Shown: positions 48,585 to 64,000 of the stretch, piece by piece
Position numbering within the stretch: the stretch's first letter is position 1
Layout: every line of letters begins with the position of its first letter
From: Tetrahymena thermophila SB210
Taxonomy: Eukaryota > Ciliophora > Oligohymenophorea > Hymenostomatida > Tetrahymenidae
Direction: 5' to 3'
Assembly (NCBI RefSeq): GCF_000189635.1
Contig: NW_002476319.1
Coordinates: 62,001 to 126,000, forward strand
DNA length: 64,000 bases
The notes under the pieces: model-generated
Told to the model about the DNA's origin: nothing
Database searches by the model: none
Seen by the model: the letters and a program-made list of their open reading frames with translations, nothing else
Translations under genes and position numbers: made by a program

Positions 48585-51500
48585 ATGAAAAACCTAAAAA
48601 AAGCATTAGCCAAAAAGCACGAAGAATAAAGCTTGAAAAACAGTCAATAAGATTCTGTTATTTTTGCTAAAAATACAGAAAACTTCTTAAAGAGTGACTC
48701 AAGCAGTAGTGACTAAGATGAAGAATTTGAAGAAAAACAACTTCCTGTTATCAAGAAATAATATGGATTTAATGGAATACCAAATAGTTATGCTTTCAAA
48801 ATAAACGATGAGTCAAGCGATGAAGATGATGAAGAAATTTTTAAAGATTAGGTATCTCCTAAAATAAATGAACAAGGCAAAAATACGATTTACGAAATTA
48901 GAAACTATTAAAAGGAGTTGTTTAAAAATTCTTATAGCAAAAATAGTATCATTTATCTTGAAACAGGTGCTGGAAAGACTATGATTGCCACAATGCTTAT
49001 AAATTACTTTTTCTAAAAACAAAAAAAGGCTCCATAAAAAAAGAAAATTATTTTTTTAGCCAACACTGTATAGCTTGTAAAACAATAGTACGCAGAAATA
49101 AAGAATAATTTACAAAGAATTTCAGAGATGATGGAAAACGATAAAGAAATCAGCTAGATATTAAAATTTTAAGAAGGCATTAATTACAGAAGAATATTTG
49201 AAAAAGAAAATCATATTGTGAAGTGTCATGGTAGTTATAAGCAAAAGGATAATTTATAAATAGAAACTTTTACTAAATAAAAATGGGACTACTTACTTGA
49301 AAATTATGAAATATTCGTTATGATTGGTTAGGTATTGTTAAATGGTTTACGTAGAGGTAATTAATTAATTAGTCATTAGTAGATATATCTTTTATATATC
49401 TTAATTTAGAATAAAAAGATATATTTCATATTAATTATTAGAATTTTTAAGTATTTGATCAAAGAAAATAACTTTTCTTAAATTATTGTTATTAATTAGG
49501 ATACATTCGCATTGAAGATATTGAGGTTATTATTTATGATGAATGTCACCATACGAGATAAGATCATCCTTATTGCTTAATATAATATGAGTTCTATCAC
49601 TTTCACAAAAGACGTAACGAATAGGTTTAATTGCCAAAGATTTATGGATTAACTGCCTCTCCAGTTTTGGATATAGAAGTAAAATCTGATTCAAATATCA
49701 TGAAGAAAAAAATCTCAGAACTCTGCACAAATTTAGATGCAAATTTTGTAAAGTATAATATCGAGGAATCTAAAAAATATATCAAAGAAGCTACAATTTG
49801 TGTTGAAGAATATGGTGAAGAAAAGAATATTTAAGAAAGAGTAATTTTATAAAAAATATATTTAATTTAATATAAAATTTGTAAATAAAGGCAAATTAGT
49901 TCTTATAAGAATAAATTATTGGAGAGAAGTGGATTTCTGACATAGAAGATAAACAGAATGAGGAAATGAGATACACTGAGATTTTAAATTTCTATATTAA
50001 ATTTTAATAATTTAAGAACTCATATTTTAGCAATTTAAGTCCAATGAATAAGTAGATATTGCTAGATATAGAAAAAATTATCTGCTTATATAGCATGCAA
50101 GTTGATGCTCAGTTAGGAAAATATTCTGTCAGTTTATTTTTGAAAGATGTTAATGATGAACTATAAAAACTTGGCCAATTTTAGCACAATAATGAAGAAA
50201 TGTAGGAATTAAAAAAACTATTCAAAGCTTAAACAGAAAAATTTATAGAATCAGTAGATAAAAGTGAAAAAAATATTTCTAAAAAATTCATGTTTTTGTA
50301 TAATAAATTAAAATAAACAATGATACATGATAAAGAAGAATTTGAGTGCTATAAAGTCAAAAATAAATACTACGAATAAGAATTTCACTAACATGAGAAA
50401 ATAACTAAAGTGTAAAAATACATTAAGGATAATTAATCGATGATTTTAGTTTTTGTTGAAGAAAAAATTATCATTAAATACTTGCAGAAGCTTCTTTAAA
50501 TTTGGATGGATGATGAAGATAGAGATAAAGATGAAGATGAAATTATTTTTAGATATAAAAAAATTGTTTGCTTAACAGGCTAATCAAACTTCTAGGATCG
50601 AAAGAAGAAAAATTTAAATAAAAATTAATATTAAAACTCTGAATTCACATAAAATGATAATTTTGAATTTGCTGAAGAAGAGGTATTATTATTTATTTTC
50701 TTTTCTTTTTTTTAATTTATTTTATCAATTGATAAATAGTATAGGCAGTAGCAAATGAAATAGGAAAGCTTAATCAGCAGTTAAATAAACAAAGAAGAGG
50801 ATATAGACTCCTTGAAAGAAAAAATTAATGATCACTAAAAATCTGCTTAAAGATGTGTTCTTGTTAATCTTGATTTTGAAGTCAGCAAATAATCTGAAAA
50901 CATTGAGGCGTAAATTATTTTACAAAATAGAAAATATTTATTTATATCAATATAAAATTAATTCTTAAAGATTCAGAAAAAAAGAGTTGTAAATAATTCT
51001 CTCAACTAGTGTAACTGAAGAAGGTTTCGATATACCTTCCTGTAATTTGGTTATTTCGTTTAATAAAATATCTAACTTGAAGTCGTTCGTTCAAATTAAA
51101 GGAAGGTAATAGATAAATACTTTAAGATAAAAATTTAAACTTTTAAATTGAAATATTTTAGAGCGAGGAAAGAAAATTCGAAGTTTATAATCATGGCAAA
51201 GGACAAATATCAAAAATAAGATTATGAAACAGATATTGAATCTTACAAAGATTTAATTTAATAAATTAAGGAAATAGCTCCAAAAGTTGAGAAATAAGAA
51301 ATTGAAATCAGACCTAATTATAAATATAAGATTGTCAAAGTAAATAATAATTTTTTGTTTTTTTTATTTTAGCTAACTTTCAATAAAAATTAGGAAACTG
51401 GGGCTATTTTAAATACAAATTGGTCTGTAAATCTGTTTCATACTTATGCTAACTAGCTTCTTTATAGCTATGATTCGAATATCAAGGGACCTTTTTACTA

Positions 51501-54500
51501 TTATATTGAGATTACAAATGTTGGCTTTATTTGCTAAATAATTGTTCCCTCCTAATCTGGATTAAAAACATTTTGCAGCAATCCTTAGGCTTAAAAAGAG
51601 GATGCAAAAAAAGATGCATGCTTTTAGGCTGTTATCATTCTTTACAGATAATATAAAATTTTTGACTAGGTATTATTATCAAATAAAATTTCAAAACTTT
51701 GTTAAATTAATTTATTTTTAATAAAAAAGTATCTGAGAAACATATCTTAGAAGATACAAAATTCATAAAGTGAAAAATCAGAATCTTTATTTGAAGACGA
51801 AAAAGATGAAAAACTCACTAAAATACTATAAAAATATTGTAAATCTTATGTAGATGTAAAACAAAAATGTAAAATGTACTACTTTTAGTCTGTTATGGGA
51901 GAGTGCTTTAAATAAAGTTTTTTTAAATCTATTTTAGATATTTAGTAATAAAAAAGTTATACATTTTAATTGTACTTGATAAAGTTCAATGATTAAGGGA
52001 AGAAACTCCCTTCTTCTGGTTTTATAAAAAACTAAGATTCTGAATTAGGTATCATACACAGCACTTAAATTCCTATAAAAGATACAATTAAATACTATCT
52101 TTAAATGCATGAAAATGAAGTTTATGCGAATATGATATATTAGTAAGAAATTTAGATAAGTCAATAATAATATGACAAGCTAATGTTGATTAATAGATTT
52201 TTAAATTCTGTTGCCCTAAATAAAGATATTGAGTTCTATGCAGAATATACAGGAGAAGTTGTAAATGGCAAAGGGAAATTATTTAAAGATCATGGTAAAA
52301 ATGCTAGCAAGAACTTATAATATAAATTTGATAACTCAGAAGGATTCAGTGCACTACTCACTGTTATTAGGCCATCCAATAACAATACAAATCTTTATGA
52401 AATCAATTTTGATCATATTGAAATATTAGAAAAGTACATTAATTACATGAGTGGTAATAAATTATTTTAAAAATTCTTACAAAATTTAAAAAAAATATAG
52501 CATAATAACTTAGTTTTGAATTGCAACAAATAAATCGTTACAAATAGAAAAAAAACTTTAAGAGAAAAAATCTTTTTTTTATTTAAAAATCTTAATAGAA
52601 AGCAGTTAATTTTTTAAGAGTAATCTGATTTTATTAATAATTTTAATTGGTTAAAAACTAAATAACTAAATATTTCCTCAATTTTTGTTATTTTAATGTT
52701 AAAATATTCTTCAGATATTAAAAAAGAATCAAAATTATTTAATTTTTGGAAAAATATGACTAATAATTTTTTTTAGGAGTTTATAAAGTTAGAAACAAGA
52801 CTAAACTAAATGAAGAAGAGAAAGCAGCTAGGTTTTAAAGTAGAAAATTAAAATAAGATGATCCATTTGCTGATTATAAAGTCAAACCTTATTATGACTG
52901 TGTAAACTTTTTTGATTGTACTAAGTAGCTAGATCCAAATATTTATTAAGATTCAAGAAAAAAATTGGTGTTACAAAGCATCATGTCTGGAAGACATCTT
53001 AATCGTTTTATATTTTATGGGTGCAAAAGCTATGAAGAAATCTAAAAGGAGTATTAATAGGTTCCCACGGGAAAAGATCCTTTTAAGTAAATAAAATAGT
53101 TAAAGGCTTAAGTTGAGTTGGAGGAAGTCTCATTTACTTCAAATGAGAATCATATGGTATTATAGGTTTAGCTTTTTACTAAGCATTTGAGAAGTTAAAC
53201 CAACTTATATCTTAAAAGAGTTGGCGTCCTGACAGAAAATTTTAAGGGTGATTATAAATATTCCCCTCACTAGTTCACTATATTTCCTTTAAATGTTAGT
53301 CTTCTTATGAAACTTAATATTTTGCATAAAACATTCCTTTACTAAATCAGAGACACATTTGGAGTGCATCACTTTTAATAAATCCGTCTTCCTAAATTTT
53401 TTGATAAGGCTTATTAGAGAATCAAAAATAATAATAAAACGAGTTGCTCCTATAACCTTGATTAAATTGAATAACCTCACTTTTTAGTAGAAAATTATTA
53501 AGGAGTTTTAGATGTTATGAGCAAAAGTGAAAAATATAATTAATTTTGTAAGAAGTACAATAACCACCAACTAATGGAGGGATACAATCAGATAAGCATT
53601 AGAAAATTTGATTAAAAATATATAAAACATAATCCTATATTTGAATCATATTAAGTATATAAGAAAAACATCTTTGAATTGTAGATTAGCGAGTTAATGA
53701 AGTCTTTGACCTCTCTAGAATATGCTGTTAACAATAAGGAATCATCACTAGAAAGATATGAATTTCTTGGTGATACAGTTTTGAAATGTTTATCTAGTAC
53801 ACAAATCTATTTTGAACACCCTAAAAGCATGGAAGATCATCTCCATGTTCATAGAACTATAATTATACAGAATAGAAACTTGGCATAAATTGCTGTAAAA
53901 AAGAAAATATTTAAGTAAAATAAATTTTTAGAATATGACTCATTTTAATATTTTTTTTTTTAGATATATTTTATCTTCTAAGATTGAAACGCTTTCTCCC
54001 ATAGGAATAAAATATGAAATAGCAGTAGACGATGATGAATAAAATTAATTCTAGAAAGAAAAGGAGCCAGATGAGTACGATAAAGCTGACTAAAGGAATA
54101 AAAATAAGAAAGGCAATGAAGAAGATGGAGATGCAGAAAATGAAGAAATTGAAGAATAATAATAATAAAATGACATTCCTAATTTATTGCGTTTAGAACC
54201 AACATATCGCCACATTAAAGGAAAAACTTTAGCTGATACTTTGGAAAGTATAATCGGTGTATTTTTTTAACAGAAAAAGGATTTAAATCTTTGCTAATAT
54301 CTTTTGTTCTCATTGTAAGTTCTCAATAAGCCAGATTTAACTTTTAACCATAGCTATGATAGAAGCCTGCAGTAAAGTTAGCTGTAAAACCCTATTTATG
54401 TCCAATTGAAGGAGATAGAAAGTATTTTAGGCTATACATTTTAAAATATAAACCTCCTATTTTAAGCCTTCACACTTCCAAGCATTGAAAGTCTTTGTAT

Positions 54501-55477
54501 TTAAATCCCCAGTTTAAAAAATACAAACTTAAATAAATTGCATCAAATAAATAATGCTATTTAAAAAAAAGAAAATTAAGGAACATTTGAAAAAATTGAT
54601 TAAATTAGCAAAGAAAATCAAAATAAAATTTACTAAAAAGATTCTAATGAATGGGAAAATTTGAAAAATTATAATCTGTGCAATCAAAGATTAGAATTTT
54701 TAGGAGATGCAGTCCTTGATTTAATTATCGTCGAGTATTTATTCAACAAGTAAATTTTAATTTTTTTTCTTTCAAACTAAATATTTTTACTTTAAATGAA
54801 AATATTAACATCAACAATTTCATAAATTAGATTTCCTAACTCTGATCCTGGTGAGTTGACATAAATGAAAACTTCATTGGTACAAAACAAAACCCTCTGT
54901 TTAATCAACTTAATGAAGGGATTTTATAAATTTATCATTGGAAGCATTTAACATAATAAAGAAGAAATAGAATTATTGCTCAATAATGTTGAAATGTTTA
55001 TGGGAGATACTTCTTTAATGTACGATACAACTTATAATTAATCATTAATTAAGACATTAGGTGACGTAATTGAAAGTTTAGTTGGAGCGATATTTATTGA
55101 TAATAATTTAGACTATGAAATTACCAAAAAAATTGTCATGGAAACACTTTTTGCAGAAATATTGCAATATTTTACTGGCTAAGAACATAGACTTAAAAAT
55201 TTACAATTGTATATTGAGAAAGTAAAAACAATAATTTATATAAAAATTAATATTAATATGAATAAATAAAATATTGAAATAGGTTCTTAAGAAAGAGTTT
55301 GGCAAAGTCAGTCTAATAGAAGATGAGACAGATATAAAGGAAGGCAAAAAGAGATTTTTTATTTAATCTGAAGATAATAATAAGGAAGTTTCCTTCGAAG
55401 TTTATGCATATGACTAAATAGATGCTATAGACTAAATCTATATTGAAATAAACTAAAAAAAGCGTTAGAAAAAATGA
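48585..55477 (+). CDS. Dicer ribonuclease with helicase and two RNase III domains
   Basis: Large multi-exon gene. Dicer cuts double-stranded RNA into small RNAs. Exon 1 (48585-49356) has an acidic start and a helicase core entry [18 protein letters not shown] with Walker A TGAGKT (residues 127-132). Exon 2 (from 49500) carries the DECH box (271-274) and [10 protein letters not shown]. The second helicase lobe shows [17 protein letters not shown] and [18 protein letters not shown] Dicer dimerisation-like dsRNA-binding fold follows (about 51380-51650), then a poorly conserved PAZ-position region (about 51780-52480). RNase IIIa has [14 protein letters not shown] and [15 protein letters not shown]. 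RNase IIIb has [14 protein letters not shown] and [14 protein letters not shown]. The acidic catalytic residues are present in both, so it looks active. A short dsRBD-like tail ends at TGA 55475-55477. Tetrahymena has helicase-containing Dicers (Dcr1, Dcr2) and a Dicer-like Dcl1; which orthologue this is cannot be settled here. Confidence 0.92.
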
Positions 55478-56235
55478 TGAAAGAAAAATAAACTTTAATA
55501 TTAATTTTGTAATTAAAATATTATCTTTTCAACACACAATCTATCATTTTTATTGTAAATTTTAGGTTTTATTTTTTCTCACTAAAATTAGCATTTCATT
55601 TAAGCTTTGATTAATACTTAAGGGTCAGTAATAGTTTGTTAGTCAATTATTTATTAATAATTATAATTTTTAGTGAAAGAGTGAATGTAGAAATTTATAA
55701 ATAATATTCTATTTTATTACTTCAATTTATTAGCAAAATCTTATTTTATTTTAAATTATTTTAAAAAACTAGCTTATTGGTTTATTTAAATAGAATTGCA
55801 ATAATTCTGAGTAATATTGATTTTAAACCAAAAATATCAAACAAATAAAATTTATTCTCTTTCAGACATTTATGGAAGAGAAAAATTTAATTTTAAAAAT
55901 TCAATATTTGAAAAGAAAATAATCAGAATATATAAAAAATATTGGAAGTGTTAATTTTGATTATGCAAACATACATACTATAATACTATTTTTATAGATT
56001 AATTGCTATTTCACTAATAAAATATCATTCCAGCTTTTAATAAAAATTCTCTAAATAAGTAATACCAAAAATTTAAATTTTTTGCTTTTGATGAATATAA
56101 AAAATATCCAGTATATTTGAATTATTTAAAAGATATAATCGAATCTAATTTTTAATTCATTATTATTAATTATTTCACATTCTATAAATTAATTTTTTGG
56201 TTTATTTAATTAAGTAAGCAAACAAACAATAGAGT
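55478..56235. other. intergenic, AT-rich
   Basis: Tandem-oriented spacer holding the 3' end of the Dicer gene and the 5' region of the GTPase/SecA-like gene. Nothing else is seen. Confidence 0.6.
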
Positions 56236-59200
56236 ATGGGTTGTGTTTGTGCAAAACCAAAACCACAAAGCAATAAAAGCATAAAAAAAGAGGAGAATCA
56301 GGGTAATATCCATTAAACTTAATAGCTTTAATTCTAATGAATAATTTAATTGAATTGAGTAGGCATAAAAGCAAATAGGTCCGATTCACCAAGTTAAGAA
56401 AAGAATAATGCAAAGGAAGAGTTGCATACAAATAAAGAAGAAACTTAGATGGATCTTTTATAAAAGAAAGAAATTTATATAGATGAGTACGAGGAAGAAG
56501 AAGTAAATAGGTACGAAGAATTTGAATAAAAAGATAGAGCACTTTTAGCTAAATACTCATAAGTTATGGATAGAGGCAAAAAGGTTAAACTTGAGATTGA
56601 AAATCAAAAAGAAAAGCCAAAACTCAATTAAGGCTCAGAGAAGAGATTCAAAGAGCTTTTGAATTTAACTTAGATGATTGAATCTAATTTAGAATAATCA
56701 GAGCTCATTCAAGGTAAAGATATTGTGATAGTCCTAGGTGCTACAGGAGTAGGAAAATCTACTACTATTAACTACTTGCTCGGAAAGAAGATGATTTGGT
56801 CTAAGATTTAAAACTAAACAAAAAGCTATGTTTATGAAGTAGAAGGAATTACTGTGGCTAAAGGAGAGCAAGAGGCTGCTAAAATAGGAACTAAACCAAT
56901 GGAATCTTAAACTAAAACTATTAACGTTTACAATGTTTAGCATCCAAAAGATGAAAGAGAGCTTGTACTTTGTGATACTCCAGGTCTTTTAGACTCTTAG
57001 GGATCCATAGTAGATATAGCAAACCAAGTTGGAATAGTAAAATCTTTATAGTATGCCAAATCTATTAGAGTTTTGTTGCTTATCGGATACAAGAATCTTG
57101 TTTCTGTTGAAGGCAAGGGTAAGCTCATAAAAGAAGTTATTGATTTATATAGCAAGCTAATTAAGGACTATGAAGAGTCTTAAGAAAGCGTGTTGATTGG
57201 TTTCACCCATTTAAATAGCGATACTACTCTTTAGCAGATCAATAATTCTTTAAAAGCAATGACTGATTCTGTAAGCGATGATGATAAGGTTTCCCAATTT
57301 CTTCATATATCAATACAAAGCATAGAAAAGAAAAACAAACTCTTTACACTTATAAAGCCACTAATAAGCGATAAGAGATAGAATTTAATCGACTCTCTTT
57401 TTAACATATAAGAAATTCCTTAGGAAAGAGTTAATTAGTATTTTACATATGCTCTTGCATAAAATACAAAAAACGAATTTGAACTTATCCTTCAAAGTTA
57501 TTAAAAAGATATTTCAAATTTATTTTAGAGGGAAGAATATGATCAAATTACTAACAGATTAAGTGTTCTCAAAAAACTAAACGAGCAATTGGAATTTACA
57601 ATTGTCAAGAAATGTTATGCTGAAAGCGTGCAAGCAGTGATCAATCTAGACTTAGTCAAGTAGACTTAATCACTTTTGCAGAGAATAACTTCCTTATAGC
57701 AAGAAATGGTGCAAATCCTTTTATAAAATATTGTTAAAGTTTCTAATTATCTGTGCTGGACAGATTAAATTAGACACGAATACTAAGAAATAAATGATTG
57801 CATAATTTCTTATAATGATTTTATAGACATTCTTTCTAGCGCGCTAGAGGAATGCCTTTAATCTATTGAAAAAACAGAAAATTACAAAGTTACAATTTAA
57901 GATTTGTTAAAGCTTTATTATGTTTACTACTGTAGTGAAATAGAAGATACATTCAAGGCCAATGCTAAGACACTCCGTATTTTCCATAAAGGTTAGGTTA
58001 AAATAAAGAGTATTTACACAAATAACTTTTATACTGCTGCTTGCTTTTCTATAAGCAAAAGAGTTATAACTCTCTTGGAATAGATGGATGAGTTAGTTAA
58101 ATCTAATGAAGAAGTCAATGTTAACGATTTAGAATCAAACTTATCTAAGCTTAAAGATTTGCATGAATAATAAGTAGGAGATCACCTCTAGTTAAATTCT
58201 TAGCTGATTTATCAAGAGCAAGTAAAAAAATGGTGTGATTTCATTTAGCAAAAGAAGACAGTTTTTGAAATAGATTATAACAAATACGATTAAGTGTTAA
58301 AAAATATAGATCAAATGAAGATAGCTTATCACTTTTTAGCTTAAATTAGCGGATCATAGAGACTAATGAATGATCATTTCCCATAATTTAAAACAGCTTA
58401 AAAAGACACTACACAAAAATTAGTATAGCAAGCAATCATGCTTTTTAATAAAGCAATTACTCAAAAAAAACTAGGACATATGGAAAAACCAATTTAATGT
58501 GCCATGGAAATAATGAATATTAGCGACGATATAAGAAATAAATTGCAAGAAGCCTCTCAAGCACTCTTTGTTCATTTAGGATCAATTGTTTAAAAGTTCG
58601 ACATGAAATTCAGCAGCTGCTCTTCATAGATAAAAAATTGTTTGATCCCAAAATACGAAACAGCTAATAAGGACTTATTTAAAAGCACAACAGAAGATGA
58701 ATTCTAAATTGTGAAGAAAAAAATTAATTCAATCCAAAAAATCTTTAAAAAGATCACTATGAAGTATTACTAATCATTCAAATTCTTTTAGAACTCAGTG
58801 ACAAAGAGCAAAATCGCATTGGAGATTTTTATTGAAGAAGTTATGAAGTTCACACAAGACCAAGTTAATGAATTCAGAAATCCTACAGGAATTTTAAATG
58901 GCTTATTCACTTTAAAGCAGTCTTCTATACTCTTAAAAGACTACACTAATAAAAAATTTGACGAAATAGCATTTTAGGAAATGATTTCTCTTATTTGCAA
59001 CAATATAAACACAAAATTTTCTTTAATAACTAAAATGGTAAACAGCATTCAAATCCCTAATAACATTGATGATACTTACAGAAATATTGAGGAACAAATC
59101 AAGAATATCAGCCATTTACTCTAATTCATTTAAAACCTTTCAAATTATATTTTAAATTTTGAAGATAAAAATCAAAACACAATTGAGTCTCTTATTCAAA

Positions 59201-62200
59201 TGGTTACTAATTGCTAGAATGGATTTGCTTAATAATTATTCAACAAGCTTAAATCTAATATGTATGATTTCGAACATTAAAAGCTACCATCTGATGCTAT
59301 GAGATAAAAGATCATTCTCGATTAACTATAAAAACTTAAAGAATACAATTACAGCTATTCTCTACTTAAAGTTGATCTATACGAACATGTCTTAGAAAAA
59401 TCTATTTCTGAGTAATCTAGACTTATTAAGGAAATCAGTGACTATTTGTCAGACAATCCATCTTTACCTGATGATTTTAATTAAGAAAGTGCTTAGAAAA
59501 ATCTTACTTTGATTAGATAAGCCGGAGTACTTTATCTAACCCATTTCATTGGAAGACTAGATAATCCTGCTGATACTCTTCAAAGTGAATTGACTATGAA
59601 ATAAAAAGGATTGGATAAAAAAGTCAAAAGCATGGTTAAGCAATCTGATTATGACCAAATATTAGAGTACATGAGAACCATGAGTGAGGATAACGAATCT
59701 TATAAATCAATAAAGAAGATTTTAAAGGAGAAGGTTAATATGCTCTTCGATTAAATAATTAAATCCTTCACCAAAAGAAATATTTTGGATGACATTTATA
59801 TTAATAAAATTAAACAAGACATAAGAAATTTAGAATAATCTAAATAGAAGCTGTCACAAATTAAATTCAAAAATTTTAGCATTGAAAAATTCTTCCCTCA
59901 AATAACTCATCACTTGACTGCCTTTTTATAGAAATAAGTAAAGAGATTTGAAGAAAAAATAGCTACTTAAAAAGTAGAGAAGGCCAGCCGTTGCTTGATG
60001 GTTGTTTGTAGAGTTGTGTAGAATTTTTAGAGCTATATTAGACCCGAGGATAACTAACTACCTGATAAAATGATCAACCAAATGAAGCTCTGTCTGCGCT
60101 AAATAGAAAACTAAATTGACATTAAAAACAAACAACAAACAACTTCCATTCTCCAAGTTCTTTAGGTACTAGTACAGAACTAACACCAATACAAGGATGA
60201 ATATAATTTAATCTTATAAAAAGTGAATAAATAAATTTTGGAACAAGCAGCAGTGTTCGTAAACACAAAGATAGATTCATAAAACGAAGAAATAAGCGTC
60301 CAAGCTATAGCTGAAACTCTTAAGGGTGAATATTAGTATTTACTTATGTACACTTTAGATAACTATAACTAGCATTATCTAGCTTTCTTCTAGCCCATAT
60401 TGAAGAGAATTTAAGATGAAATGTTAGATGTGAGAAATATGTTTACTCAACGTAAGATTACAAACATCCTCAATTTAATTAATGGATCTAAAAGTTCAAT
60501 AGTTTAAAAAGAGGTCTGTAATTAATACAATAATCTCTGTGATACTTTCTTTGATTTACTCCAAAATAGAAATTATAATGGCACTTAAGAACTTCTCAAA
60601 TTCCTCTCATAAATTGCTGACGGTATTCGTTCTTTCTCCTACAACTCCTTGAAACAGAAATATTTTGAATTGTAAGTTTGCATAGAGTAAGAATTTAATA
60701 GGTTACAAACTTCAACTGTACAAAGTCTAAACTAAATTGTTTTTGAGAGAGAATCTGAAGGAATTTATGATGTTGTTTAATTTTATTAATTCAACTCCTT
60801 AATGGCTTAATTTAACTTTTAATATGTCAAACATGAATAATTCAATACATAATCTTGCCAAGTCTTCGATAAAATATAAAAATAATTAAAACAGTCTGTA
60901 TCTCTTTTGCAGCACACTGTCTTTAACAATACAGTAAAACTAATTGATTTCATTGAATAGACAAGGGTAAGTTTGAATGATTAACAAATTAATGTAATCT
61001 AAATCTACAAGAAATATTTATCTGATATGCAATCAACTCATTCACATGTTAGCAGCTTCAACGATCTCAATAAATTAGTGAATGATGGATGCTGGACTAT
61101 CTAATAAGTTATATCTGATTTACTTAATGCAAAGAAAAATGAAATTGTTAATGGAATCAATTCGTTACTTATACAAAAAAATTACAAGGAAACTTCAAGA
61201 ATTTTAAGGTAAGTAGAGGAGTTCTCAAAGAAAATTTAAGAGAGCTCTGTTAATATGAACACTTCAGACATCATGAAGGTAGTATTTAGAAAATACGAAG
61301 AGAAAGCAATAGAAGCTCAAAGAAGATCAAAGGATAAGTATGATTCTAAGCTATTTGCATTGATAGAAGATTTATCTGAAATAGAAAAATATTTTAAGGA
61401 AATCATAGTTCAAATCTCCAACTATAATGCATCAGAAGAAATAATCAACTAAATTAAATTATCTATAGCCCAATTAACTAAACAAATTTATTCCTAAAAT
61501 TTCGAGGATGAATCAGACGTGAGAGAGTTTGTTGCATCTATTATTAATATCAGATAAATAGCATTCGAAATAGGACAAGTCCATGAATTCACTCTTGAAT
61601 AAATAAGTGAGCTTATCACAACTAAATTTTAATAATTTACACCTCAATTCATTTCAGATGTTTCATCTAAGTTGAGATAAGATAAACTTGGTTTATTGAT
61701 AATCTAGGAAAATAGTAAAAACTTCGAAGGTCTTCTTAACAAGATGATTGAGGAACTTTCCAAGAATTAATTCAGCTTGGAATATGTAAACAATAATATT
61801 AAAGGTGAAAAATTCATTGCAAGTGAGTTTTCAATCCAATATAAATATTATGAAGAGTGCTGGAAAAACCTCCTAAGCAAGTGGCACTAAGGAGATCTCA
61901 AAGCAGAAACTATTTTATAAAAGACAAAGTCTTTGTTTAAAAAATTCTGCTCATCCTACTAAGTCGATTACTTGAATCAAAAGTAAATCACTTGGTCAGC
62001 ATCATAGAAGTAAGATCTTTCTATCATGCTAGCTCACTTGAGTACTTTCTGGTCTATAGTAAACTGCCAAAGAAGAGAAGACAGTTTCAGAAAATTGCAT
62101 CCTGTAAATAAATATTAAATTAAATAAAATTTTTAACAACATTTACTTTAATTAATTAAGTTTCTGTTGATTTTAATCTAATTCCATTTTCATTAATTTA

Positions 62201-64000
62201 AAGGTTTAAGTTTCAACTGTAATGAGATTGCTCTCAATAGATACAACAACTACTTAGATGCCTATTGAAAACCATCTAGTTTAGGTAAAGACAGGTGAAG
62301 GTAAATCTATCATTTTGGGAATTACTTCTTGCTTCTTAGGCTTACTAGGATTCTATGTAGATTGCTGCTGCTACAGTAATTATCTAAGTTAGCGTGATTT
62401 TTAGAGCTTCAGTCATATTTTCTAGCAATTAGAAATTGATAATGTAATTAAATATAACACTTTTGAGAAATAATTCGAAGATATAATTAATGATCCAGAA
62501 GATATGAGATAAGTCGGTTTAGATTTACTTGATAATAAGTTACATAAAAAGGTACAGATATAAAGATAAGGGTCTTTGGGCAGTTAACCAAAGAGAAGAA
62601 TTCTTCTTATTGATGAAGTAGATTTCTTTTTCGGTGAAGATTTCATTGGTCGTACTTACCCTGTTGCACTCTATTACAATAATCAAGATGTTATTGATAT
62701 TTTGAAATATATCTGGTAGAATAGAGCTGTTCATATCGATAAGTTTAAGTAAACACAAGTATATAAAAAGCTATTTTAGAACAATCCAAATTTAGTTCCT
62801 TGGTAAGCATTTATTGATGAACGTATAAAAATGATGTACGAAGATGTAAATAATCTTGAAGGCCACAGATATTTGACATATACTCCTTCTGGAAAAAGCA
62901 AAACAATTATTTGCTATAAATCTCTTGATGGCATTTCCTTCAATACAGTCAAAGGATACAAAACAGCTTTTGCTTATATCTAAGAGTGGGAAAAGAAGAA
63001 TATAACAGAAGATGTTATGAATGAAAACCTTTCATTTATAATTAATGTAGGCTGCTTCTCATTCGCTTAGATACCTTAGGAATATCAACTGGTATTGGGA
63101 GTCAGTGGTACTTTAGAAGATATGAGTGATTATCAGAAAAATTTAACTAGAAATCTCTTCAACATAAGAAAATTAACAATCTCCCCATCAATTTATGGGT
63201 AGTCTAAATTTTCTTTTAAAAAAGAAAAGGACGTAGTTGTAAAAGAGAATAAGTTCCTTTATCATTTAGAAATATAATCTCAAATAGAAAACGTTATGAA
63301 GTAAAATAGATCAGTAATAGTATTCTTTGAGTCGAAGAGGGCATTAGACATTTTTAAAAATGAGTTTAAAACATAATACGATTATTAAGTTCTTTCTGAA
63401 GAAACTAATTTCAAAGGACACACAATAGTTAAAGCAGGTTCTATGAGCATGATAACACTCGCAACAAAGCCTTTTGGTAGAGGCTGTGATTATATCAGCA
63501 CAGATCCTGAGCTGGATAAGAATGGTGGTATTCATATTATCTAAACCTTCCTCTCTGAAGATCTAGCAGAAGAGACTCAAATAAAAGGTAGAACTGCAAG
63601 ACAAGCTTAATGTGGTAGCTACAGTTTAGTAGTCAACAGAGAAGATCTTGTACTAAACTTTAATCTAAATGCTAGTGTTAAAAATTTCTCTTATGAATTC
63701 TTACACCAATTGAGATAAACCACCTAAAAAAACAAAGAAAAATCTTTATCAATAAAGCTTGAAGAAACAAGCTAATCTCACAAGGAATCTATGCGTCTAA
63801 AGCAAATTTTGCTAAATTATTCTCCTAATAACAATGAAGAAATACAAGAAATATTAATCAAATTTAACAGGGTCACAGACAGAACTGAGAATAAAACAAA
63901 TATGTATAATTTCTATAGTGATTTAGCAGGTAAAATTGGTATCTATGAAAATAATTTCGAGTACGACGAGTATAACAATCCTAAAAATGTTGGTTTGGGT
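56236..64000 (+). CDS. giant acylated GTPase fused to a SecA-like motor, truncated by window edge
   Basis: Exons 56236-56302, 56363-62103 and 62204 onward, still open at 64000: at least 2535 residues. The start MGCVCAKPKPQSNKS is a myristoyl plus double-palmitoyl signal. A P-loop GATGVGKST (148-156) with NYLLGKK and a switch motif DTPGLLDS (227-234) define a GTPase resembling AIG1/dynamin-superfamily proteins; I cannot place a clear NKxD. About 1600 residues of Gln-rich helical sequence follow. Exon 3 opens with VMRLLSIDTTTTQMPIENHL and VKTGEGKS (Walker A, 1966-1971), then LLIDEVDFFFGEDFIGR (DEVD 2073-2076), GVSGTLEDM, ATKPFGRGCDY, GGIHIIQTF and QIKGRTARQAQCGSY (GRTARQ 2398-2403). This is the motif order of bacterial SecA (MKTGEGKT, DEVD, MTGTA, GRGTDI, GGLHVI, GRSGRQ). 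It is presumably cytosolic and membrane-anchored. The C-terminus lies outside the window. Confidence 0.88.
62104..62203 (+). other. intron separating the GTPase/stalk exon from the SecA-like exon
   Basis: GTAAAT donor, TTTAAAG acceptor, 100 nt, phase 0 on both sides. It falls immediately before the SecA-like region, so domain boundary and exon boundary coincide. That is consistent with, but no proof of, joining of two ancestral modules. Confidence 0.8.

Follow-up and report, generated by a model that had tools for sequence, protein, structure and literature searches.

Export in bacteria and plastids is associated above all with SecA, an ATPase regarded as its hallmark. The subject here is a gene at the end of a 64,000-nucleotide stretch of Tetrahymena thermophila SB210 (the window; contig NW_002476319.1, forward-strand positions 62,001 to 126,000), which encodes a GTPase domain, a long linker and a SecA-like motor in one polypeptide. 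Several described systems come close to it. Passages of one paper describe "secondary SecA_DEAD domain proteins" in Planctomycetes and others, and, in a spirochaete, a second copy of SecA that carries TPR repeats together with NACHT, so that SecA has been seen combined with a further NTPase before; the word "GTPase" is missing from the main text of that paper (Kamneva et al., 2015, PMC4452313). Giant actinobacterial secreted toxins contain SecA-like ATPase domains together with helix-turn-helix, toxin and transporter domains, no GTPase being named in the passages on these proteins (PMC8195603). Effector modules of the Amoebophilus symbiont include GIMAP-type GTPase domains and SecA-like domains, and the corresponding passages describe no fusion of the two (PMC3482391). 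A Daphnia transcriptome contig is labelled "SecA DEAD-like domain" in PMC5037449, which weighs against the view that eukaryotes lack motors of this kind. Among the matches listed from the open-licence PMC literature, nothing was found on a ciliate SecA or a GTPase-SecA fusion; subscription journals, preprints and protein databases may well contain annotated SecA-like proteins from ciliates or animals.

Like SecA (PF07517, PF21090, TIGR00963), the window protein has a two-lobed motor with the same motif order, as well as an insert at the place of the preprotein clamp and, in the model, a long helix after the second lobe. Unlike SecA, its motor stands at the end of a GTPase giant, lies outside the canonical clade (the branch of its own core clade is 100/100) and has no SecA_SW or SecA_PP_bind match. 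It shares a non-canonical SecA_DEAD domain with the secondary proteins, but the ten planctomycete or plasmid loci taken as this kind have open frames of about 570-720 amino acids (aa) and form their own clade (98/92). The actinobacterial toxins are alike in that a SecA-like ATPase sits in a giant multidomain protein, and unlike in their other domains. Giant proteins of Rickettsiales and Legionellales, some of which live with protists, also carry SecA-like motors; however, no GTPase was found in them, and those placed in the tree sit in other clades.

The window gene belongs to a family, proposed here as GTPase-linker-SecA-like giants, which is otherwise bacterial in the prokaryote collections searched and counts four Chlamydiota among its carriers. 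The window protein has the G domain, the pre-motor segment with its H..Q and the core-clade motor of this family. With moderate confidence, we infer that this shared gene moved between bacteria and a protist and that the ciliate product is a membrane-tethered, GTPase-gated ATPase that handles polypeptides.

A scan of 84,980 prokaryote genomes gave 26 loci. Two were far ahead: L006, in a Chlamydiae metagenome-assembled genome (MAG; 8e-73), and L007, in a MAG labelled Actinomycetota (3e-68). Each is one open reading frame (ORF) of the standard code, of 3006 and 2675 aa respectively, in which a P-loop GTPase is followed by a long linker and the SecA-like motor. This order is present in six intronless bacterial ORFs (L006, L007, L048, L081, L082 and L083) that span Chlamydiota, gammaproteobacteria and another phylum, and thus in six of the ten core bacterial loci. 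Two others (L050 and L076) lie on cut contigs and lack the first part of the G domain; what remains of it scores 61 and 65 bits with a profile from which both were absent; the contig of L049 is cut before the G domain, and L077 has no P-loop GTPase and a motor split over two frames. When the window was kept out of the profiles, its motor still scored 375 bits (1.5e-113) and its G domain 106.7 bits (5.3e-32), and neither profile matched any other ORF of the window in ciliate code 6 at E values up to 10. The same G-domain profile, made before L081-L083 were fetched, matches all three (47-61 bits). An earlier note on this DNA had proposed that a captured SecA was newly tethered in the ciliate. 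This is not supported, given that the fusion is common to bacterial single ORFs and that canonical SecA forms a clade without this motor.

In ciliate code 6, positions 56236-64000 are spliced from three exons into 2535 codons (2535 aa) with zero stops. The continuous gene model of the earlier note is thus upheld, and all of its motifs are present letter for letter (MGCVCAKP, GATGVGKST, DTPG, VKTGEGKS, DEVD, GVSGTL, FGRGCD, GGIHII and GRTARQ). The gene continues past the window end, and the protein is seen up to 138 residues after motif VI. The underlying code-6 frames run from stop to stop at 56359-62268 (1969 aa) and from 62171 to 64000 (610 aa, open at the window end), while the bacterial code gives a single ORF of at least 100 aa overlapping 55000-64000 (112 aa, minus strand). 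Glutamine is encoded by TAA/TAG at 150 and by CAA/CAG at 79 of 229 codons. The guanine-cytosine (GC) content is 23.2% in the whole window, 29-36% in the exons and 20% and 13% in the introns. A Dicer-like gene, in pieces of frame, adjoins directly upstream (Dicer_dimer 4.8e-12; Ribonuclease_3 6.1e-10 and 5.3e-22). This neighbour, code 6 and the introns identify a eukaryotic nuclear locus and rule out bacterial contamination of the window.

The leader, MGCVCAKP, looks by eye like the dual-acylation type named in the earlier note, since it fits the consensus for a myristoyl group at G2 and palmitoyl groups at C3 and C5. The window holds three copies of the start pattern ATGGGNTGY, a pair on the plus strand and one on the minus, so that an MGC start alone is weak evidence. 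The GC content of exon 1 is 0.358, against a maximum of 0.284 in 690 overlapping upstream stretches of 67 nucleotides (nt). Core bacterial ORFs read whole start without an MGCVCA-type leader, and this putative acylation signal therefore looks like a ciliate addition.

The motor is a member of the SecA superfamily and is not a canonical SecA. Exon 3 matches SecA_DEAD (2.6e-9; 37.2 bits, cut-off 24.6) and P-loop_SecA (5.8e-7; 29.8 bits, cut-off 27), so that, of the two Pfam families which the earlier note had named for this exon, SecA_DEAD was found over its cut-off and SecA_SW gave no match. NCBIfam cut-offs for SecA itself are far from reached (67.0 bits against 862 for NF006630; 37.6 against 800 for TIGR00963). 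A single-protein search of the PDB at E values up to 1 found 24 sequences, all of them SecA. A profile of six family motors gave 24 SecA sequences in the lead, followed by two DEAD-box entries at 0.0036, and its best alignment to a SecA of known structure is unbroken between Walker A and motif VI, covering both nucleotide-binding domains (NBD1 and NBD2) and the clamp region. The AlphaFold model of exon 3 (35 alignment rows) has a mean predicted local distance difference test (pLDDT) of 81.2 and a predicted template modelling score (pTM) of 0.78, with residues 116-128, 241-248 and 558-599 below pLDDT 50. In Foldseek, SecA occupies ranks 1-36 (best 2.2e-18) and a DEAD-box helicase follows at 5.9e-7. 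The template modelling (TM) scores are moderate, at 0.40-0.54 by query length, with root-mean-square deviations of 5.5-12.8, which we attribute to flexible lobes. About 160 residues between DEVD and motif III are colinear with the SecA clamp in the profile alignment, and a predicted helix (exon 3 residues 497-537) follows the second lobe at what we take to be the position of the long scaffold helix of SecA.

These searches rule out a generic helicase and bear out the SecA identity beyond generic helicase motifs that the earlier note had claimed. A more specific alternative is a nucleic-acid helicase or translocase whose SecA-like core is tied to a GTPase and has no polypeptide role. The SecA fold is common to superfamily 2 helicases, Helicase_C gives a weak match (0.0048, below cut-off), PADLOC reports one weak DinG match (0.0013), and the neighbouring gene is Dicer-like. 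Nevertheless, this explanation is improbable in view of the PDB and Foldseek rankings and of the colinear insert at the clamp position.

The window motor keeps Walker A (TGEGKS), DEVD, RGxD and both arginines of motif VI across NBD1 and NBD2. The GTPase motifs are intact as well. TGEGKS and DEVD are present in eight of the ten core bacterial motors, and L077 has TGQGKS with DEVD. A degenerate, non-catalytic scaffold that retains the fold is thus very unlikely for a frame that is open over 2535 codons, even if SGTL and GRGCD depart slightly from the TGTA and GRGTD of canonical SecA, and the core relative L083 has SGQGKS, DELD, RRGMD and KRTQRQ. L083 itself may possess a weakened or altered motor, judging by these letters.

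The G domain is a TRAFAC GTPase. MMR_HSR1 (2.5e-9) is the sole Pfam family over its cut-off, which agrees with the P-loop GTPase of the earlier note, both GATGVGKST and DTPG being present. AIG1 is absent from the Pfam list up to E = 1 (with HMMER speed filters on), and NCBIfam gave FlhF at 22.5 bits against a cut-off of 174. A phmmer search of the PDB placed Toc34 first (0.0011), followed by Der and then by GIMAPs (0.12 and 0.16). When the six G domains of the family were made into a profile, Der came first (2.8e-5), then an ABC-F protein and the P-loop of the DEAH helicase DHR1, and further down Toc33-type proteins (0.00024), septins (0.001) and GIMAP4 (0.0024), these matches being mostly confined to the P-loop. 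The predicted structure (six rows, pLDDT 74) is closest to GIMAP2 in Foldseek (5.4e-6) within a mixed GTPase list, in which Der, IRG, mitofusin and others lie within two orders of magnitude. Thus the domain perhaps leans towards GIMAP without being one. GIMAP/IAN and Toc34 GTPases, which we take to be the "paraseptin" group, are among its best weak neighbours in sequence and fold; it differs from them in having no AIG1 match, in the rank of Der ahead of GIMAP in the profile search and in its fusion to a motor.

Between the two domains, DTPG and Walker A are 1739 residues apart. The linker contains 0.9% proline and 1.5% glycine, from which its helicity is inferred; the model shows helix in its first part alone. 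The linker measures about 1430 residues, and the glutamine enrichment named in the earlier note is mild (9.0% glutamine in the whole protein, with 9.9% lysine, 9.6% leucine and 9.1% isoleucine). Bacterial linkers are alike within each group (L006-L082, 1e-32; L007-L048, 4e-11), and the window linker resembles them in length and low proline and glycine only.

The GTPase-motor fusion is real in the ciliate gene, to judge from sequence comparison across intron 2. A profile of ten bacterial pre-motor segments scores 16.8 bits at aa 1848-1929, in the last part of exon 2, and no more than 8.1 bits in any of 500 shuffles, which indicates that exons 2 and 3 belong together; in this sample the L007 segment ends short of H..Q, and that of L049 is short because its contig ends there. 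A smaller profile (seven segments, 200 shuffles) gave 11.5 against 6.5 bits. Exon 2 has a single instance of the pattern L[AG][HN][ILF][SF]..W[TS], at aa 1912; it is absent from all of 5000 shuffles and, in this strict form, present in four of ten bacterial proteins. W[TS] and then H..Q precede the motor in nine of ten bacterial relatives (L076 lacks both), and splicing of intron 2 brings KLHP to VQ, which recreates H..Q ahead of Walker A. The alternative, two adjacent genes for a GTPase and a SecA-like motor that were misjoined across 62104-62203, draws on the change of reading frame there, on a gene model made from genomic sequence alone and on a gain of just about 3 bits in the motor match upon splicing (377.5 against 374.4). 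It is scarcely credible and is regarded as ruled out, since six bacterial relatives hold both parts in one ORF and the pre-motor profile matches the last 80 residues of exon 2 at twice the best shuffled score. The single polypeptide of the earlier note is thereby supported.

Counts of carriers in separate taxa are lower bounds, and some genomes recur between scans. Chlamydiota live intracellularly, and at least seven of 232 of their genomes matched the motor profile at 1e-20, at least four at 375 bits or more, which are thus host-associated carriers, and three at 80 bits or less. At least two of 74 genomes matched at 1e-45 in the phylum of genome G002, and at least four of 369 gammaproteobacteria (the class of a Legionellaceae MAG), three of these being core. 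At 1e-25, at least six of 343 Rickettsiales matched, of which one is core (G326), and at least 12 of 143 Legionellales, none of which is core by the tree (ten of the 12 are in it, and the other two are near-copies of L060). Among the candidates scored at 1e-45, none of 199 Planctomycetota and none of 385 alphaproteobacteria matched. The window motor retrieved 21 plasmid and seven phage records, all with partial SecA or SecA-like matches only; the L081 and L048 motors retrieved zero and two plasmid records at 1e-8. No family member was found in the viral contigs scanned. The idea that all bacterial copies are protist contamination is ruled out by their standard-code intronless ORFs and by the 1,123,457-base and 1,355,351-base contigs that carry L048 and L077.

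The motor tree has 61 rows and a midpoint root, with the window as the sole eukaryotic sequence. The window and the ten bacterial motors form one side of a 100/100 branch, outside which lie canonical SecA (97/88), the secondary SecA of PVC bacteria (98/92) and the Rickettsiales and Legionellales giants. Within this core, the window groups with L083, L082, L006 and L081 (97/91) and is the first of these five to branch off. An earlier tree of 59 rows placed it next to L006 (98/77); L039 was then dropped for its long branch and three gammaproteobacterial rows were added; L083 is a long branch in the larger tree. Before the trees, 18 locus ids were left out, all of them duplicates or near-copies of kept rows apart from L034, which is a partial canonical SecA; the second piece of L077 was also left out. 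The branch of the window is long, and the composition of its row is skewed. The length of the window protein also fits its group, as the distance from G3 to Walker A is 1739-2013 residues there and 1005-1227 in the other group where measurable. The view of the earlier note that SecA is confined to bacteria and plastids is an oversimplification, given the non-canonical SecA-like motors in large open frames of Rickettsiales, Legionellales and Chlamydiota and the Daphnia label.

The gene presumably moved between bacteria and a protist in either direction, on the basis of the tree and the shared part order; the tree, with the window as its one eukaryotic member, speaks to kinship and not to direction or date. 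It is quite possible, if held tentatively, that the family is a eukaryotic (protist) one which bacteria acquired while living in protists; the ciliate protein would then represent the ancestral kind, and the chlamydial and gammaproteobacterial copies would be host-derived effectors or mimics. The scattered carriers counted above for Chlamydiota, the phylum of G002, Rickettsiales (one core locus) and gammaproteobacteria are in keeping with this, as are the leucine-rich and SidM_N-like matches, all below Pfam cut-offs, at the N-terminus of L048. Furthermore, a SecA DEAD-like protein of Legionella fallonii appears in a table where PMC4256840 deals with horizontally transferred eukaryotic proteins, and GIMAP-type GTPase and SecA-like domains occur among the Amoebophilus effectors. 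On the other side, the window is one branch inside bacterial diversity, the GTPase-less L077 branches first within the core under the midpoint root, and SecA-like motors are bacterial in the collections searched.

In the mechanism proposed for the ciliate protein, myristoylation at G2 and palmitoylation at C3 and C5 would place it on the cytosolic face of a membrane, where GTP binding or oligomerisation by the G domain would assemble or switch it. The long linker would give reach or form a stalk. The motor, with two lobes and an insert at the place of the preprotein clamp, would use ATP hydrolysis to take hold of a polypeptide and either remodel or pull it. The likeliest substrates would be proteins at a phagosomal or symbiont-facing membrane. 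A role at phagosomes, or one directed at intracellular bacteria, is suggested by the carriers of the relatives and by two published lists (PMC3482391; PMC4256840), and by nothing else.

Several points weigh against a transferred, polypeptide-handling ATPase. The window motor is just 33% identical to its closest bacterial counterpart by the alignment used for the tree, and 35-36% by a three-row alignment, and no similarity was detectable between the window linker and the bacterial ones. SecA_PP_bind (PF01043) gave no Pfam match on the clamp insert, and the subfamily of the G domain is uncertain, as search and fold lists disagree. With L083 altered and the motor of L077 broken, not every member need be an active ATPase. 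Activity, localisation, expression and substrate are predictions, and the gene may be old in eukaryotes and have passed from them to bacteria.

It is rather doubtful, though conceivable, that a eukaryote domesticated a bacterial giant and, by adding an acylation exon, anchored this polypeptide motor to a membrane for use in cell-autonomous immunity or in the control of symbionts. If so, it would be a eukaryotic SecA relative working outside plastids and outside SecY, and part of a two-way gene traffic between protists and intracellular bacteria that supplied bacterial effectors. A ciliate nuclear SecA-like-GTPase gene common to Chlamydiota and gammaproteobacteria would in itself reveal a separate SecA-like branch outside the canonical setting and the transfer of a whole machine between protists and bacteria. 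Furthermore, it makes testable whether SecA-type motors handle polypeptides without SecY.

Table 1. Positions of the gene parts and motifs in the window, of its neighbour and of other loci named in the text.
Feature	Location	Strand	Remarks
Exon 1	56236..56302	+	leader MGCVCAKPKPQSNKSIKKEENQ, putative N-myristoyl/palmitoyl type; spliced open frame
Intron 1	56303..56362	+	60 nt, GT..AG, GC 0.20, in-frame TGA inside
Exon 2	56363..62103	+	GTPase, long linker, motor start; open frame in code 6
Intron 2	62104..62203	+	100 nt, GT..AG, GC 0.13; joins KLHP to VQV
Exon 3	62204..64000	+	SecA-like motor, still open where the window ends; matches to SecA_DEAD and P-loop_SecA exceed their cut-offs
G domain (about aa 140-365)	56713..57390	+	MMR_HSR1, bacterial G-domain profile, model
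G1 GATGVGKST	56737-56763	+	
G3 DTPG	56974-56985	+	
G4-like FTHLNSD		+	
Linker ("stalk")	57544..61836	+	about 1430 residues, low Pro and Gly
Pre-motor segment	61837..62103	+	LAHLSTFWS and KLHP; end of exon 2
TGEGKS	62291-62308	+	motor motif
DEVD	62612-62623	+	motor motif
SGTL	63104-63115	+	motor motif
GRGCD	63476-63490	+	motor motif
GGIHII	63524-63541	+	motor motif
GRTARQ	63587-63604	+	motor motif
Dicer-like gene	51019-55323	+	upstream neighbour, in pieces of frame
L048, N-terminal 1500 residues	L048 4427-8998	+	leucine-rich and SidM_N/nucleotidyltransferase-like matches, below cut-off
L077 region	L077 7078-14000	+	Rickettsiales; motor, then 792-aa frame
G001 SecA_DEAD loci	contigs 24 and 52		L035, L036, L039
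Larger Megaera giant	L005 5400-21077	-	about 5225 aa
Smaller Megaera giant	L005 609-5378	-	about 1589 aa
L. geestiana giant	L002 249-9092	+	2947-aa ORF, HEAT repeats and SecA-like motor

The family members differ beyond the motor. L007 and L048 end 108 and 96 residues after motif VI. In L006, L081 and L082, C-terminal parts of 370-470 residues carry a DATGSM motif that looks by eye like a von Willebrand factor A (VWA) domain with a metal ion-dependent adhesion site; Pfam gives a sub-threshold match in L006 (VWA_2, 0.066) and none in L081 and L082, and the window ends about where this part would begin. The first 1500 residues of the L048 protein hold leucine-rich and SidM_N/nucleotidyltransferase-like matches, which would fit a host-directed protein. 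After the L077 motor, a 792-aa frame with glycine-rich repeats is cut by the fetched end. Besides the giant, G001, the Chlamydiota genome of L006, encodes one protein with a full-length match to SecA_DEAD and a further pair of SecA_DEAD proteins, and genes beside L006 and L007 resemble ruvB, ligA and thiC by eye.

Other SecA-like giants were met along the way. A plasmid of Candidatus Megaera polyxenophila, a Euplotes symbiont (CP113870.1; L005), encodes two neighbouring ones. In the larger, SecA_PP_bind passes its cut-off, and both the HEAT/ARM repeats and a RickCE-like catalytic match fall short of theirs; this protein was missed by the motor profile and is in no tree. IMG/VR contigs L032 and L033 hold open frames of 3557 and 3555 aa with a SecA-like giant; both are perhaps plasmid or prophage sequence, and L032 groups with Rickettsiales copies. 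In Legionella geestiana, one ORF with HEAT repeats over cut-off fills about two thirds of a 13.8-kb plasmid (NZ_CP041715.1; L002).

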